The notes under the pieces were generated by a model, which was not told where the DNA came from, did no database searches, and saw nothing but the letters and a program-made list of their open reading frames with translations. From assembly GCF_003363135.1 (NCBI RefSeq), contig NZ_QRBB01000002.1, forward strand, positions 186,001-250,000: 64,000 nt of DNA, read 5' to 3'. Position 1 is the first letter of the stretch. Every line of letters begins with the position of its first letter. This document shows, piece after piece, positions 43,219 to 51,792 of the stretch. The position numbers and the translations under genes were made by a program. This DNA comes from Alteriqipengyuania lutimaris. Its GTDB lineage: Bacteria > Pseudomonadota > Alphaproteobacteria > Sphingomonadales > Sphingomonadaceae.

Positions 43219-43381
43219 GCGCATATCCCTCGGGCGCCGGATGGCGCGTCGCCCCCCTCACCATCCTACGGTTGCATGATCCGCAACCCCGATCGGCGCC
43301 GGGAAAACGGACCGGCGCGCATCGCCATCCTCCTGAAAACGCGGTGCATTTTCGCCGGACGCCACGGCGCGGATCGCTTTG

Positions 43382-43408
43382 CCTGACACACCTGACACAG
43401 TGTCCAGG
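43382..43408. repeat. tandem 9-bp repeat and inverted arm beside the HTH gene
   Basis: CCTGACACA occurs twice in tandem (43382-43390, 43391-43399) and is followed by GTGTCCAGG, which makes a nearly perfect inverted repeat with the second copy. It lies just beyond the stop of the terminase-small-subunit-like gene. Meaning unknown; possible binding site for that protein. Confidence 0.5.
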
Positions 43409-43421
43409 GCCAAAAAACCGC

Positions 43422-43919
43422 CTATCCGATATATTCGCACCTTAGCTCTGGCTCGTCGCGCAGTTCGTCGAGCGCGAGGTCGAACTCGGCCGCCGCATCG
43501 CCCGCACACTCATCGCGCGCCAGCCGGTCGAGCCGCCCGAGATGCGCGAGCAGCAGCCGCGCGTCGTAGCGGCGGCGCGTCGCCACCGCCTCGCCGTGGT
43601 AGAAGATCGTCTCCTCCACCCCGTTGAGCGCGCGGTCCGCCAGCACCGCCTCGACCTGCGGCCGCGCGACCACCAGCGCGGCGTCCCACAGCGCCGCGAA
43701 GCGCGCGCAGGCACGCCGCATGCGATAGGCGGTCGAGCGCGAGACGCCCGCATCCCCGCACGCCGCCCGCACATTCCCGCACCCCGCCAGCGCATCGAGG
43801 AAGTCGCACTGCTGCGCGCGGCTGAACTGCTCTGGGATCGCGGGGAGCGCCGCATCGTCCTGCGGCGCGAGCGCGAGGCGGGTTTCGGGCGTATCGGCGG
43901 TGTCGGCGAGGTTGGGCAT
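43422..43919 (-). CDS. HTH protein resembling phage terminase small subunits
   Basis: 165 residues. Central HTH: FLDALAGCGNVRAACGDAGVSRSTAYRMRR, then ARFAALWDAALVVARPQVEAVLADRALNGVEETIFYHGEAVATRRRYD and a helical tail. The wording matches small 'terminase small subunit-like' HTH proteins often found alone in sphingomonad chromosomes. Such proteins bind DNA, but no large terminase, portal or other packaging gene is present, so this is an orphan regulator or domesticated phage gene. The ATG at 43919 is preferred since upstream codons are not protein-like. The 9-bp tandem repeats lie directly downstream. Confidence 0.7.
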   Translation of the reverse strand: MPNLADTADTPETRLALAPQDDAALPAIPEQFSRAQQCDFLDALAGCGNVRAACGDAGVSRSTAYRMRRACARFAALWDAALVVARPQVEAVLADRALNGVEETIFYHGEAVATRRRYDARLLLAHLGRLDRLARDECAGDAAAEFDLALDELRDEPELRCEYIG

Positions 43920-44152
43920 GGCATAGGTCCGCAAGCTGGCGCGAGCCAGACGGCGCGCGCGGGGTTGAGACGGACCGGACCATCTATCGGCGAACCCGCG
44001 TGTAGGACAGGTTTTGTGCGGGGGTGCGGGGATCGAGCGGCAGGGCAGTCCTCCCTCGCCCCTATCCCAATCGTCGGCCCGTAACCCTATCGTCACCCCA
44101 AAGTCGTCGGCCCGGACTTGCCCCTCGACCACGCCCCACTCCCTTCTCGTCA

Positions 44153-44193
44153 CCCCGGACTTGCCTGCCCCCGCGCAGGCGGGGGATCCGGGG
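44153..44193. repeat. REP-like palindrome, degenerate copy
   Basis: Outer arms CCCCGGA/TCCGGGG (44153-44159, 44187-44193) and inner stem CCCCCGC/GCGGGGG with a GCAG loop. It shares CGGACTTGCCTGCCCCCGC with the perfect copy 100 bases on. Confidence 0.7.
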
Positions 44194-44274
44194 TCGGTGC
44201 TTCTTCTTCACGCGCCCAGCAGAACGAGCGCAGGCGCGCCGCCGAGCCGCCCGCCAAGCAAAGAAGAAAGCACT

Positions 44275-44324
44275 GGCCCGGACTTGCCTGCCCCCGCCTG
44301 CGCGGGGGCAGGCAAGTCCGGGCC
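44275..44324. repeat. perfect 23-bp palindrome (REP-like)
   Basis: The arms at 44275-44297 and 44302-44324 are exact reverse complements around a 4-base CTGC loop, giving one of the strongest hairpins possible. It lies 24 bases past the stop of the 74-residue minus-strand gene. No T-run follows. The core motif recurs in degenerate form at 44153-44193. Confidence 0.85.
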
Positions 44325-44348
44325 GACGCGGAGGGAGAGCGAAAGCCC

Positions 44349-44573
44349 CTACCGCCCCCGCAATTCCTCGCGCACATGGACTGTCACCGAGACCGCCCTA
44401 CCCAGCAGCACTTCCTCGTTGCGCATATGACGAAGCAGCAGCGCGGGGTTCGGCGCAGCGCGCGTCCCGATGCGGCCTGCATCGACATGGGCCTGCCACG
44501 CTTCGAACGCCTCGCGCTCGGTCAGCGTGGGGTTGGCCGCGAGGTCGGGGTGCTGCGGGGAGGGTTTGGACAT
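44349..44573 (-). CDS. small hypothetical protein
   Basis: 74 residues. GAGAGG lies six bases upstream of ATG 44573, giving a proper ribosome site. The protein is mainly helical and charged (LTEREAFEAWQAHVDAGRIGTRAAPN, then ALLLRHMRNEEVLLGRAV) with no membrane segment or cysteines. I do not recognise it. It lies between the palindromic repeats and the NACHT-like NTPase gene, on the same strand as both neighbours, and may belong to either unit. Its GC-rich composition is like the core genome, unlike the NTPase gene. Confidence 0.5.
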   Translation of the reverse strand: MSKPSPQHPDLAANPTLTEREAFEAWQAHVDAGRIGTRAAPNPALLLRHMRNEEVLLGRAVSVTVHVREELRGR

Positions 44574-44681
44574 GGGGTGCCTCTCGGGTTCGTCGGAGCC
44601 GGGACCGGAGAGGCTAGTGGGGGAGAGGGGTGTAGGAAAACAGCCGTCCTAACATTAGTCCCTCGCGGCAACCCTCAACCA

Positions 44682-46742
44682 TTACGGCAGAGCGTTAGAA
44701 ATATATTCTACCGACTCCTTGGAAAACGTTTTTCTATATATTTCGCTGTAAGTGGAATTCGTCCTATCACCCAACACATCGGGATGGAGTACATACATCG
44801 CGCCGTCTATGGAAATGATACCATCATGGACTAACCTCTCCAATATAGCTTTGCCAGTGCCTTTCGTCATCCGTTCGTGGTCCAATTTCCTTCGGTATCT
44901 ACGCAAGCTTCCCTTACTATGCGATCGGAATGAGATCACAAATTTCCTAAAGCGCCTAAGTCCTTCGTCTACTCTGGGATCATCCGCTGCACGCTTGGGA
45001 GCCGAAAATGTGGTCCACGGATGCGCGCTTGAGTCTTCCCAACTAACAGTTAGTGCGACGTCCCCTCTTAAGCTCGGCACTCGCGAAATAGAGGGTGCCT
45101 CCAGTTCATCTGCTTCGAGGACAACTGCACCTTCACCGTCACGCGCACGCTCAATAATCCAGATCTGCGATGGACTTATCAGTTTTCGGCATTGGAGAGA
45201 TATCGGCGCCACCAAAAGAGCTTCACGCCCTGAACCAATCTCGACGTCAACCAGAGGCGACTGTATGTCTACGTCCTCTATGTATGGACCCAGCCTAATG
45301 ACGTTCGTCTCCTCGATAATGAACTGGAATATCTGAGGTTCGGCGGCCATTTTTCGTGAGACGCTAATCTCAACATCGCCCTCCAACAAACGCTCTTCAT
45401 CATCAATCTCGGTGCCGTATACCGTCAAGGTGGCCTTATCACCCAGGGCAAGTCCCGCGCGGATAGATGCATAAACGACGCCAACATGTGATGCCGGCAT
45501 CAGACTGACCTCAGACCCTTGCGCCTGCTCCGTCAAATCTTTCAGGTTTTCAAAATAGAATTCGGCCAAAAATGGATTTGCTTTAGCCCCTTTTTCGAGC
45601 TCCGTAGTAATTGCCGGGGCATCTTCGCCCCTGGCAAACATATCGTGAGCCGCTATAAATGCACCAAAGACCGCCGATGATGGCTCGCTCCCAGAAAGAA
45701 AGGGATGCTCATCAATCCATGTATTCAGAGCAGACGAATAAATTTCGAAATCGGTAGGGCTCAGACCCTCAATTTGCGGGGACCTTGATCCGTAAACACG
45801 GGCCGAAAGATGCCCCAACTGTTCAGGGGGAGTGTATAGCTTCTTGGCAAGGCTCTTGTCCTCAAAGGGCAGCGACTCTAACTTGCCCCTCTCCCTTTCA
45901 AGAATATAATCTACAATTGTGCGGAGCGTTATTGGCTGCTCCCCGCGCTCCACCTCAGAAATTAGAGTCGATGGATTTTCTTCACGCGCGACCCTTTGAG
46001 AAATCGCGTTCAAGACCGGCGCGTAACCGGCGAAGCGATCAGAATCAGCTTCTGTCTCCGCTCTGATTCGATCAATGAGAAGCTCAACGGCGGTATCTTC
46101 AACCTGAACATGCGCACTATCTTTTTTCAAGACCCGGAGTTGCGATTTTGCAAACTCAATCGACGTTTCCCGGTCAAAGAACCCGAGTTCCATCACGGCG
46201 ATTTTAGCCTTCTCGCCTTCCAGCCAAATCCAAGAGTCTTGGATTGCGCCCGTACGCCCCAATACCACTGTAGGAAGAGGCTTATTCTCGGACAGGTTCT
46301 TTATATCTGCCAAAAAGGCCTCAAACGCCTCTTGCGTTACCCTTATGCGCGCCTCGTCAACGCCGTCGATCACGATCCCGAGAGATCCCGAACGCCATTC
46401 GTTATAAAGGTCACATCTCGCAAGACCGCCGGAGATAGTGTTGGCGCCCACGGGCTCTGCCTTAGCCAAATCGACTAAAAGTGAATTCGTTCGAAAACAA
46501 AGCTGCTTGGCAAACGTCGATTTTCCGACTGCTCCGGGAGCGGAAATAAGAATAATATCGGCATCGTCCGCGCCTGCGGTTGAAAGCTCATCATCTAAGG
46601 TGAGACTCGCTTCCTGAAAACCGGCGAAGGGAGCATCAACCCCTGACCACCCAGCAATCATTTCCCCGTCAGGCGATTTGCTGGCCTTAAATGCTCTAGT
46701 CCAATATCCTTCAATAGGATAACTCAACGGCTTCGCTCCCAT
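44682..46742 (-). CDS. solitary NACHT-like P-loop NTPase, candidate defence protein
   Basis: 686 residues. A short N-terminal region precedes the Walker A at 67-76 (SAPGAVGKST, [AG]x4GK[ST] form) and a Walker B at 122-132 (GIVIDGVDEAR) whose hhhhDGhDE pattern is typical of NACHT/STAND ATPases. VLGRTGA (about 160) may be the sensor. Residues about 220-380 are helical, about 410-560 strand-rich, and 590-670 look like a winged helix (FRSHSKGSLRRY onward). No nuclease, protease, TIR or membrane effector motif is seen. The gene is markedly more AT-rich than neighbours and stands alone. NACHT-type NTPases are known as anti-phage sensors; defence is inference. Confidence 0.75.
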   Translation of the reverse strand: MGAKPLSYPIEGYWTRAFKASKSPDGEMIAGWSGVDAPFAGFQEASLTLDDELSTAGADDADIILISAPGAVGKSTFAKQLCFRTNSLLVDLAKAEPVGANTISGGLARCDLYNEWRSGSLGIVIDGVDEARIRVTQEAFEAFLADIKNLSENKPLPTVVLGRTGAIQDSWIWLEGEKAKIAVMELGFFDRETSIEFAKSQLRVLKKDSAHVQVEDTAVELLIDRIRAETEADSDRFAGYAPVLNAISQRVAREENPSTLISEVERGEQPITLRTIVDYILERERGKLESLPFEDKSLAKKLYTPPEQLGHLSARVYGSRSPQIEGLSPTDFEIYSSALNTWIDEHPFLSGSEPSSAVFGAFIAAHDMFARGEDAPAITTELEKGAKANPFLAEFYFENLKDLTEQAQGSEVSLMPASHVGVVYASIRAGLALGDKATLTVYGTEIDDEERLLEGDVEISVSRKMAAEPQIFQFIIEETNVIRLGPYIEDVDIQSPLVDVEIGSGREALLVAPISLQCRKLISPSQIWIIERARDGEGAVVLEADELEAPSISRVPSLRGDVALTVSWEDSSAHPWTTFSAPKRAADDPRVDEGLRRFRKFVISFRSHSKGSLRRYRRKLDHERMTKGTGKAILERLVHDGIISIDGAMYVLHPDVLGDRTNSTYSEIYRKTFSKESVEYISNALP

Positions 46743-46883
46743 CAGTCTGCAAGACCTTGCTAGTCTTCAAGACCTATCTTTACAGCAAATGTCAGGACCG
46801 CCAAGCGCAGCAATCGCCTAAGATGTCCAACACCCGGAGCGCCCCGGCTCGAAGCCGGCGCAGGCTAACATCAGATCGTACTT

Positions 46884-46942
46884 TCAATCCGCCGGTTCTG
46901 CCTGTCTTTCCAGCATCGGTTTCAGATAAGCGTCGGTGCCGC
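46884..46942 (-). pseudogene. remnant duplicate of the uvrA 3' end
   Basis: On the minus strand this reads GTDAYLKPMLERQAEPAD and a stop. It is closely alike to the true UvrA C-terminus ([15 protein letters not shown]) encoded about 80 bases upstream, with roughly three quarters identical bases over the YLKP region. It is in another frame than uvrA and separated from its stop by a palindromic repeat. It is either a displaced original 3' end of uvrA or a duplicated one. Confidence 0.6.
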
Positions 46943-46977
46943 TCTGGGGCTCGCTTGCCACCTCCTCCGGCCCCAGC

Positions 46978-46995
<18 letters not shown>
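46943..46995. repeat. REP-like palindrome overlapping the uvrA stop
   Basis: GGCCCC and GGGGC arms flank AGCCTACGCC (about 46962-46984), within a longer motif (GGCTCGCTTGCC through GCAGGCTCGTTCCGGG). The last codons of uvrA (RNEPAPA) are encoded by the repeat, so it appears to have been inserted into the end of the gene. Confidence 0.6.
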
Positions 46996-49977
<2,982 letters not shown>

Positions 49978-50150
49978 AGGCGAGCCCAAGTGGGGGCTCG
50001 CGGGGGGTTAGTCTAGGGGGAGAGCAATCGGGCGCCGACAACTGGCCCAGCGGCATCACTTCTCCGTTTTGCCATCGGTCCAATTTCGGACTTTGTTGTG
50101 TCTCAGTCGTTCGGCGCGGTCACAAGCGCGATATTTTGCCTGGCCGCCTG

Positions 50151-50435
50151 CTAAATGCCCTTCCGATCGACACAGACAGCGGTCTTCACCCCCTCGATAA
50201 ACGCATCGCCTGCAAAGTCGAATTCGCTTCCGGGGGTCAGCTGGTCTGTAGCCAACCGCAAGTGAAGCAGCTTTCGTGCTCTTTTGTCCTGGTTTTGAAC
50301 GACCAGCGTGAGGGTCTCTCCAGGTCGCTTCTCGACTGCTTTCAGGTTGACAATCAATCTCGTTCGAGATTCGTATTCCCTGAGCAAAACCTCAAGCTGC
50401 TTAAGAGAATATTTTTCCGGTCCGATATACACCAT
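50151..50435 (-). CDS. small hypothetical protein next to a lipoprotein gene
   Basis: 94 residues, mainly strands with many charged residues (KQLEVLLREYESRTRLIV, then TLTLVVQNQDKRARKLLHLRL), one Cys near the end, no signal peptide. AGGAGG stands just before ATG 50435, and GTG 50432 is also possible by spacing. It follows a lipoprotein gene by 14 bases on the same strand. Both are more AT-rich than the flanking genes, suggesting acquisition together. I do not recognise the family. Confidence 0.6.
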   Translation of the reverse strand: MVYIGPEKYSLKQLEVLLREYESRTRLIVNLKAVEKRPGETLTLVVQNQDKRARKLLHLRLATDQLTPGSEFDFAGDAFIEGVKTAVCVDRKGI

Positions 50436-50449
50436 ACCCTCCTAATCAC

Positions 50450-51454
50450 TTACTGCAGGTAGCTGTGATACGCAGAAAATTGCTGGTCATTCTGCAAGGT
50501 TTGAATCAGTGACGTGACTTCGTCAGCAGTACAAAATCCGCCCAGCAAGGCATTCTGGATAAGCTGGTCTACTGCTCGGACATCAGCTTCGGTCATTATT
50601 CCGTCGCGCATCGTTGCCGACACTTTGATGCCGTAAGCTTCGGCGAGCGCACCTAATCCTTGCCGCGCAACTGTAACGTTGTCATCACCCGCTCTAGCCT
50701 CAGTGAGTGCGGCGTTAAATACCTCGTAATTGAAGTCTCCGAGCTTTTCGGTCTGCCCGCTTTGAAGGGCAGCAACCTGCTCGGGAGTGCAGGCGAATCT
50801 GACGGCCCTATCGAAGCGCTCCTTCTGCTCGACCCGTTGCTTTACGGCTTCATCGGTCACTAGGGCGATCGCTTGGTCGAGCGTTCCAGCATTCTGATAT
50901 TCTACGAGGTCAGCCAATGCGGCTGTGAGAGGATAGTCAGCAGACGGAAGGCTCATTTTTTGTACAATACCGGTGCGGACCTTCAGCCTCTGAGCGTCCA
51001 TTCCAGCGATCAAGGCCACGGTCGTCTGGTCAAAATACAGGTTCTTGTCGATCGATGCGCTCGTACCGGCATAGACGGCGGAGACGGCCGCAAGCTCTTC
51101 GGCCGACTTTGCCGCGATGGTCGCCAGACCGGCGAGCCCCAATTGCGCTATGTCGAAACCCAGGACGAGCTCTCGCTGCTCGCCCGCGATACCCGTTCGA
51201 AACTCGTAATAACGAGCATCGATTGCCTGAAAATATGCCGAAAGAATCTCGTTCCGATAGACCCGCTGCGCGGGAGCGGACAGTTGACGATACTCCGATA
51301 CAACGTTGGGAATCCGGTAGAGTTTGACAACATCAATGGCATCGCTGGTCGAGATGACCGATTTCGGAGCGCCCCTTAGAGACACACAGCCCGTGGACCC
51401 AAAAGCGAAACTGCCAACCAGCGTAAGGAAAATTGCCTTTTTTACATCCAGCAT
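50450..51454 (-). CDS. hypothetical lipoprotein
   Basis: 334 residues. The N-terminus MLDVKKAIFLTLVGSFAFGSTGC is a type II signal with lipobox Cys23; GGGAGGG precedes ATG 51454. The mature part is almost wholly helical (SEYRQLSAPAQRVYRNEILSAYFQAIDARYYEF; AEELAAVSAVYAGTSASIDKNLYF), with three further Cys residues near the C-terminal half. Reads like an anchored periplasmic alpha-helical scaffold. I do not recognise it. The region is AT-richer than the core genome and includes the next small gene. Confidence 0.65.
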   Translation of the reverse strand: MLDVKKAIFLTLVGSFAFGSTGCVSLRGAPKSVISTSDAIDVVKLYRIPNVVSEYRQLSAPAQRVYRNEILSAYFQAIDARYYEFRTGIAGEQRELVLGFDIAQLGLAGLATIAAKSAEELAAVSAVYAGTSASIDKNLYFDQTTVALIAGMDAQRLKVRTGIVQKMSLPSADYPLTAALADLVEYQNAGTLDQAIALVTDEAVKQRVEQKERFDRAVRFACTPEQVAALQSGQTEKLGDFNYEVFNAALTEARAGDDNVTVARQGLGALAEAYGIKVSATMRDGIMTEADVRAVDQLIQNALLGGFCTADEVTSLIQTLQNDQQFSAYHSYLQ

Positions 51455-51792
51455 CGGCGCCCTCCCACAACCCCGGAAAGCCTTATTGGCGGTATCTTTA
51501 GCAGACTCCAAAAGGCCCAACAACACCGAAGACTTACTTCTACGAAGAATACCGCCTGAAAATTCGTCCACGTTTGAATTATGCACTACGGACTTCACGT
51601 GAACCAAATTGAAATTATCTTTTTTTATAAATATTTGTCATCCGAAGCAGAGGATTGCTCTCCCTGAGCGATCGATCTCGACCGAGCTAGTCGACCGCAG
51701 CGGGAAATGAGCGGATCGCTCGTGGTGACTGCGGAACATCCCCCGCGCCCACCCGCTGATCCATCGAACCCCCAATTCGAAGGAGCATCCCC

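Follow-up and report, generated by a model that had tools for sequence, protein, structure and literature searches.

A 64,000-nucleotide window of the Alteriqipengyuania lutimaris genome (contig NZ_QRBB01000002.1, positions 186,001 to 250,000; 'the window' here means this whole stretch) carries a gene at 44682-46742 on the minus strand for a 686-residue P-loop nucleoside triphosphatase (NTPase), which an original prediction, made from the letters of the sequence, had proposed as a candidate for anti-phage defence. We conclude that an anti-phage role as such is very likely. More specifically, the gene probably encodes a defence protein that works as a single gene, belongs to an unnamed family of NACHT-like (STAND-type) NTPases and is one of the exchangeable cargos of a defence hotspot next to uvrA on the chromosome. 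The proposal of defence draws its support from context: the gene occupies a site filled with other cargo in related genomes, a relative sits at the gpA–gpQ locus of a P2-like prophage, another directly follows an operon of the cyclic-oligonucleotide-based anti-phage signalling system (CBASS), and 7 of 14 genomic loci with relatives have defence genes within 6 kb.

Exchangeable cargo at the uvrA site

The gene lies left of uvrA in an interval whose content changes from genome to genome. The names uvrA, rlpA and argG for genes at this site are presumptive and were given from their sequences. Loci are numbered with L and genomes with G, and the features of the site, including its open reading frames (ORFs), are:

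44638..46969, no strand: hotspot interval, its content varying in relatives; here only the NTPase gene and a uvrA remnant
44682..46742, minus: NACHT-like P-loop NTPase gene, 686 aa from ATG, a single intact frame
46887..46970, minus: remnant (scar) of a second uvrA 3′ end, 28 codons, PEEVASEPQSGTDAYLKPMLERQAEPAD
46978..49989, minus: intact uvrA, right anchor of the hotspot, 1003 codons without internal stop
44349..44573, minus: small conserved ORF at the left boundary, about 74 aa, frame assigned by eye; a 79-aa counterpart in L108
43422..44153, minus: conserved ORF left of the cargo, helix-turn-helix (HTH)-like by eye, without Pfam match
44139..44337, no strand: GC-rich inverted repeat, arms 44139-44185 and 44291-44337

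The original prediction described an orphan gene in an insertion hotspot, and comparison with relatives bears this out. The gene is absent from the nine other genomes of the genus (L102-L110), all of which carry other low-GC DNA left of uvrA (1.7-3.0 kb, GC content 0.45-0.54). Their DNA match to the window ends at 44637 in six of the nine (the left-hand match of L105 and L110 does not extend across the small ORF) and resumes at 46970-47078 in all nine, while the interiors of their intervals share no DNA match over 150 bp with one another. The cargo of L107 includes a Septu PtuA gene (PADLOC E=1.3e-154; the candidate model PDC-M01A scores best there, 4.3e-175) and a partner gene with a weak HNH match; L103, which also holds an insertion-sequence (IS)-like gene, and L109 carry related ParB-like genes; and Pfam and PADLOC matches in other congener cargo comprise ParB_N with Mrr_cat, IrrE and a weak HEPN. 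The cargo of L104 and one gene of L102 have no Pfam match. A further cargo, at 675-2439 of L110, pairs thymidylate synthase with a dCTP deaminase-like gene and is reminiscent of nucleotide-pool defence.

The same holds beyond the genus. A search of 59 genomes of the bacterial family (58 genera) gave matches in 56, and 20 regions were taken from the best 22 matches in other genera, G433 and G439 being passed over. Taking as low-GC cargo any ORF of at least 110 aa with GC below 0.62 left of uvrA (in L199 about 2 kb from it), we find such ORFs at the site in 18 of these 20 genera. The exceptions are L202, where rlpA lies close to uvrA and no such ORF is present, and L203, whose region ends at the contig end. 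Cargo is shared at the protein level in three pairs among the 20 regions, and the ParB and Mrr genes of L189 recur in the congener L109. PDB sequence matches back two identifications among the cargo of other genera, a dGTPase (E=9.2e-87) and a reverse transcriptase whose nearest match is AbiK (E=1.5e-8); NACHT-like, Schlafen-like, KAP-like and DUF262-like cargo was read by eye. With Septu, Mrr, dGTPase and AbiK-like genes among its contents, a hotspot of defence cargo left of uvrA spans the bacterial family (L102-L110; L187-L206), and the site is a source of further defence candidates.

The uvrA scar noted earlier is present in the following form: uvrA itself is intact, but 46887-46970 is the remnant of a second uvrA 3′ end, whose encoded C terminus is 68% identical to that of the congener L104 and 52% identical to that of the window's own uvrA. 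L102 and L104 give short DNA matches (63 and 74-76 bp) inside this scar region, and second uvrA ends occur in 8 of 29 relatives (L110, L191, L193, L194, L195, L196, L198 and L199; the matches in L110, L198 and L199 are weak, E 4e-4 to 3e-3). Such remnants are the likely fingerprint of an exchange in which cargo would travel between uvrA sites, dragging a piece of uvrA along. The repeats that had also been reported are GC-rich and 34-47 nt long. They lie to the left of the cargo, and a copy with 72-79% similarity at 46967-47011, on the right edge of the cargo, overlaps the uvrA 3′ end. Among the matches listed, repeat units like 44147-44206 recur in at least 5 of the 10 genomes of the genus, and a repeat near 43364-43430 recurs dozens of times (G663 has four matches in all).

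A NACHT-like NTPase with a conserved basic C terminus

What had been described, without a strand, as a single 686-residue gene in an AT-rich island is an intact frame on the minus strand, the plus strand of 44682-46742 being full of stops; its GC content of 0.506 compares with 0.646 for the window, and its GC at third codon positions of 0.508 with 0.896 for uvrA. A scan of the DNA for expression signals returned five promoter-like sites against 1.3 expected, with none upstream of the start of the NTPase gene, and no terminator. Judged by its conservation, 44682-46742 is a genuine gene and not a chance ORF. A protein search gave 275 matches at E<=1e-3, itself included, among 7,996 scored candidates; the 119 others among the matches listed align over 91-100% of the query at 43-49% identity, and distant relatives are 21-35% identical. 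An alignment of 30 hand-picked sequences (the window protein and 29 of the listed relatives) contains 103 invariant columns. The start and the motifs of the protein are placed as follows, invariance referring to 21 diverse relatives:

46727, minus: alternative TTG start at residue 6, plausible, with GGAG upstream; it yields 681 aa, the length of the relative P0001
46518..46541, minus: Walker A, APGAVGKS, residues 68-75; A68, G70, A71, G73 and K74 invariant
46353..46370, minus: Walker B, IDGVDE, residues 125-130; D126, D129 and E130 invariant
46254..46259, minus: sensor-1-like GR, residues 162-163; R163 invariant
46011..46034, minus: FAGYAPVL, residues 237-244; candidate STAND GxP motif, a tentative assignment
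44823..44972, minus: basic segment, residues 591-640, net charge +9, holding FRSHSKG (605-611); the highest conservation outside the NTPase core

The P-loop with Lys74 and the IDGVDE Walker B thus stand where the original prediction had seen them. Across the 21 members the invariant or near-invariant core comprises Walker A, D91, Walker B, R163, FxGYxPVL, HPF and, near the C terminus, FRSHSKGxLxRxxxK. The arginine on the strand after Walker B is present (VVLGR), and its site is what we take to be sensor 1. The GxP motif is a feature of STAND proteins, and the conserved GYAPVL (239-244) is, by sequence alone, a candidate for it. Outside the NTPase core, information content reaches its maximum of 2.95 bits in residues 591-640, a candidate output or nucleic-acid-contact module; variability is greatest in residues 1-60, 201-232 and 401-500 (1.66-1.79 bits). 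Hydropathy over 19 residues does not exceed 1.09, which gives no sign of a transmembrane segment. Only 67 residues, of which residues 1-60 are poorly conserved and without domain match, precede the P-loop at residue 68; an N-terminal effector therefore has no room, in keeping with the earlier remark that no effector domain is recognisable, and one of the Avs kind does not fit. Searches with the window protein gave 0 Pfam families, no credible NCBIfam match (best E=0.051) and nothing credible in the PDB, whether by sequence (best E=0.14) or by profile (best 0.012, a clamp-loader P-loop).

That the protein is NACHT/STAND-like, as had been proposed, is supported by the order of its motifs and by profile comparison. 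A profile of residues 40-310 aligned to a set of eleven bacterial NACHT domains (14 proteins less three that lacked a clear P-loop motif) with an hhalign E of 2e-10 over 151 columns, and the alignment runs through Walker A, Walker B, the strand on which R163 falls on the arginine of the NACHT set, and the F-containing segment that follows. Against an AAA+ set (16 of 20 proteins kept) E was 4e-7 over 143 columns and the placement of Walker B was poorer; five shuffled-column controls gave E 0.5-0.9. Weak Pfam P-loop matches among the 21 relatives were to NPHP3_N in 11 (best 0.0037), AAA_16 in 8 (best 2.2e-4) and nSTAND3 in 2.

The family is large but accessory. The gene was found in 1 of 385 genomes of the class and in 1 of 397 of the bacterial family, where four of five matches were at chance level (at most 21 bits over 50-100 residues); a search of the phylum (398 genomes) gave the gene itself and one 19-bit match. 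A search from two plasmid relatives (Acidithiobacillus and Alistipes) gave 144 matches, with Pseudomonas proteins among the 120 listed. Scanning named genomes with two 8-residue patterns yielded 14 loci, 11 of them in Alphaproteobacteria and the rest in gammaproteobacterial, Desulfovibrio and Phycisphaeraceae metagenome-assembled genomes (MAGs), each genome with a single copy, which in G1132 and G1134 is broken up across contigs or frames. Tree analysis groups the Desulfovibrio copy with that of Roseospirillum (100/100), and a second group (100/99) unites the Sphingomonas copy, a viral-contig copy and Brevundimonas; this pattern fits horizontal spread, contamination being possible for the MAG-derived loci; the window copy has no firm position. 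Two relatives have N-terminal extensions, P0195 (823 aa) and P0047 (862 aa), and that of P0195 has a precomputed HTH (PF01381), which perhaps serves self-regulation.

Neighbourhoods and prophage settings of relatives

The original prediction had proposed a survey of the neighbourhoods of homologues. Defence genes lie within 6 kb at 7 of the 14 genomic loci (L003, L004, L006, L008, L009, L011 and L014), so the homologues are not always in housekeeping contexts. They comprise a type II methyltransferase in L004, TIR in L006, a DNA methylase in L009, an MmeI-type enzyme in L011, AbiE with PDC-M54A in L014 and, in L008, a DNA methylase seen as a partial match of 39 residues. At L003 a divergent WYL regulator is followed by genes for CD-NTase (SMODS), HORMA, TRIP13 and NucC, a complete CBASS operon (type III), and then, on the same strand, by the NTPase, whose ATG lies 68 bp past NucC. 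This linkage is no rule, CBASS being assigned at 1 of the 14 loci. The AbiE, ThsB, cyclase and TRIP13 matches were placed in L014, L006 and L003 by eye, and TIR, SMODS and AAA were confirmed by Pfam.

Across these loci 98 neighbour ORFs (35,791 aa) matched 159 PADLOC families at E<=1e-8, against 43 for 97 control ORFs (38,337 aa) from the same genomes, a rough test that counts families and not ORFs, since a single protein can match dozens of models, and into which 98 of the 123 ORFs of L002-L015 entered, the 25 omitted being mostly the outermost. For the controls, seven ORFs (six in one case) were taken from the centre of a single blind region in each genome; of their 43 families the 25 listed were mostly PD-T4-6 and mads models, and the listing for the neighbours likewise covered 25 of 159. 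Both the relatives and the site are enriched in defence genes by association, with the neighbour count taken as rough.

On an Acidithiobacillus plasmid (L016) a divergent WYL regulator is followed by multiubiquitin, ThiF E1 and DUF6527 genes and then by the NTPase, with a 7-bp overlap. The WYL regulator (57% identity between the two loci) and the NTPase thus bracket unrelated modules, CBASS in L003 (5766-12022) and multiubiquitin/E1/DUF6527 in L016 (8926-14103); L014, too, has a WYL remnant of this kind next to its NTPase.

Relatives also occur on viral contigs. A first scan of IMG/VR found ten contigs with relatives, one at 47% and nine at 32-33% identity, and further scans added two weak ones (23 and 25%). 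In L026 the relative lies between a replication-nickase gene (phrog_91) and a portal gene (phrog_68), with a terminase beyond, flanks that we interpret as the gpA and gpQ genes of a P2-like prophage. Passages of PMC9122126 describe the gpA–gpQ interval of P2-like phages as a hotspot for anti-phage systems, P2 itself having old and tin there. In L020 the relative comes after a P4-like primase; by eye, genes that begin almost identically (693 aa) adjoin tail-like genes in L021 and L022 and have different surroundings in L023-L025. Such similar starts at differing prophage positions suggest that the gene moves singly. The prophage relative of L024 had no near match in E. coli genomes.

Alternative explanations and a proposed working

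Several results weigh against a NACHT-like defence protein. The Pfam NACHT model PF05729 does not match the window protein (in its own genome the model hits two places, both on another contig and neither of them this gene), and comparing the NACHT profile with the AAA+ profile also gives a match (1.7e-8 over 32 columns), so that the preference for NACHT over AAA+ is modest; for both reasons we term the protein NACHT-like and not a proven NACHT. PADLOC has no credible model for it (best HEC-04, E=0.011, 12 bits), and neither it nor the L024 relative, used as queries, found a relative at E<=1e-5 in 50,697 deposited phage records. At L002, L005, L007, L010, L012, L013 and L015 no defence gene could be assigned within 6 kb. 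Several hotspot cargos lack a recognisable defence domain or PDB match; of the cargos from other genera, four had no PDB match and one a weak one. An NTPase relative was found with none of nine multiubiquitin modules elsewhere (one of them, L132, is uninformative, ending about 0.4 kb past the DUF6527 match); a fixed place in multiubiquitin operons was therefore rejected, and the link is optional.

The loci with neighbouring operons raise the question of whether the NTPase serves other defence systems (CBASS, ubiquitin-like conjugation) as an accessory, for instance by regulating or recycling, and does not itself provide defence: it is the last gene after the CBASS genes in L003, it overlaps DUF6527 in the multiubiquitin operon of L016, and the two loci share their WYL regulator. 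We consider this unlikely, as the NTPase stands alone in the window and, by eye, is a single gene in prophages, CBASS accompanies it at one genomic locus, and the nine multiubiquitin modules from other genomes do without it. MalT is a STAND-type transcription regulator, and on its model the NTPase would sense a signal while a winged-helix-like basic C-terminal part binds DNA and switches genes. The C-terminal segment is indeed basic and conserved, one of the 21 members has a weak winged-helix Pfam match (SelB-wing_2, E=0.1), and P0195 carries its extra N-terminal HTH; but by eye the loci contain no fixed partner genes, restriction and abortive-infection genes occupy the same site in relatives, and relatives occur as prophage cargo, which together make a regulator quite unlikely.

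Carriage on plasmids and viral contigs, with integrase, recombinase or MobA genes near 5 of the 14 genomic loci (L004, L006, L007, L009 and L013), would also suit a helper of mobile elements or a plasmid or prophage maintenance gene with no part in immunity. By eye, however, no recombinase, transposase or integrase is found at the window site, nor any transposase or integrase in the nine congener cargos except the IS-like gene of L103, and the near-identical gene starts lie at several different prophage positions; such a role seems improbable. Least credible is a housekeeping AAA ATPase lying by chance in an AT-rich patch, which we regard as very improbable: the AAA+ profile also aligns and AAA_16 weakly matches 8 of the 21 relatives, but the distribution contradicts it, the gene being missing from nearly all related genomes searched, and other cargo holds the site in relatives.

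The single-gene anti-phage protein that we favour resembles several known systems and differs from each. With bacterial NACHT/STAND proteins (bNACHT, NLR-related) it shares Walker A, the IDGxDE Walker B, the arginine after the next strand and the F-containing segment, all of which align, and a defence context; it differs in lacking a Pfam NACHT match and an N-terminal effector and in its conserved basic C-terminal FRSHSKG, and no repeat sensor was identified in it, no structure-based search having been made for one. Like Avs (AVAST) it is an NTPase switch protein encoded by a single gene in prophage and defence contexts; Avs proteins join an N-terminal effector to a C-terminal sensor, according to passages of PMC12724215, whereas the window protein has 67 residues before its P-loop and no PADLOC Avs match. 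A relative occupies the locus of the P2 old/tin hotspot systems in L026, but the window copy is chromosomal and the family is not described in the passages of PMC9122126 available. The directly adjoining relative in L003 links it to type III CBASS, of which the window protein matches no PADLOC model and which was assigned at that one locus of the 14; the shared uvrA hotspot in L107 links it to Septu (PtuAB), whose PtuA is an AAA_21/ABC-type ATPase with a PADLOC model that the window protein does not match. STAND-type phage sensors are already known (passages of PMC12724215), and seven systems with P-loop NTPase domains are among 31 further validated ones (passages of PMC13092281). What differs here is an unnamed NTPase family without an N-terminal effector; a text search of the open-access literature, which does not establish absence from print, found neither a name for the family nor a uvrA defence hotspot.

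We lean slightly towards the protein working as a STAND-type oligomerising switch. In the uninfected cell the NTPase core (about residues 60-300) would hold it off; a phage product may bind the C-terminal half where it varies most (about 400-560), oligomerisation would be driven by nucleotide exchange, and the C-terminal basic module (about 590-686, with FRSHSKG) would act on nucleic acid or recruit a host factor, so that phage growth or the cell is stopped. The switch step is supported by motif and profile evidence, and we infer the phage trigger, oligomerisation, the division into sensor and output and the nature of the output from conservation. Placing the output in the C-terminal module is tentative. 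Similarly doubtful is the fuller picture of an immune switch of inverted architecture, with no N-terminal effector and an undescribed C-terminal basic module (FRSHSKGxLxRxxxKxxxxR) acting on nucleic acid, in which a protein of about 680 residues would work alone as single-gene cargo and could be added to WYL-controlled operons (CBASS, multiubiquitin). Known bacterial NLR-like switches have N-terminal effectors, and a switch family without one would show another route from recognition to immunity; small size and single-gene nature make this family easy to test.

A second AT-rich stretch (GC 0.54-0.57) lies on the 5′ side of uvrA at 50151-51607; it holds two ORFs without Pfam match, one of 385 aa that by eye looks lipoprotein-like and one of 94 aa.

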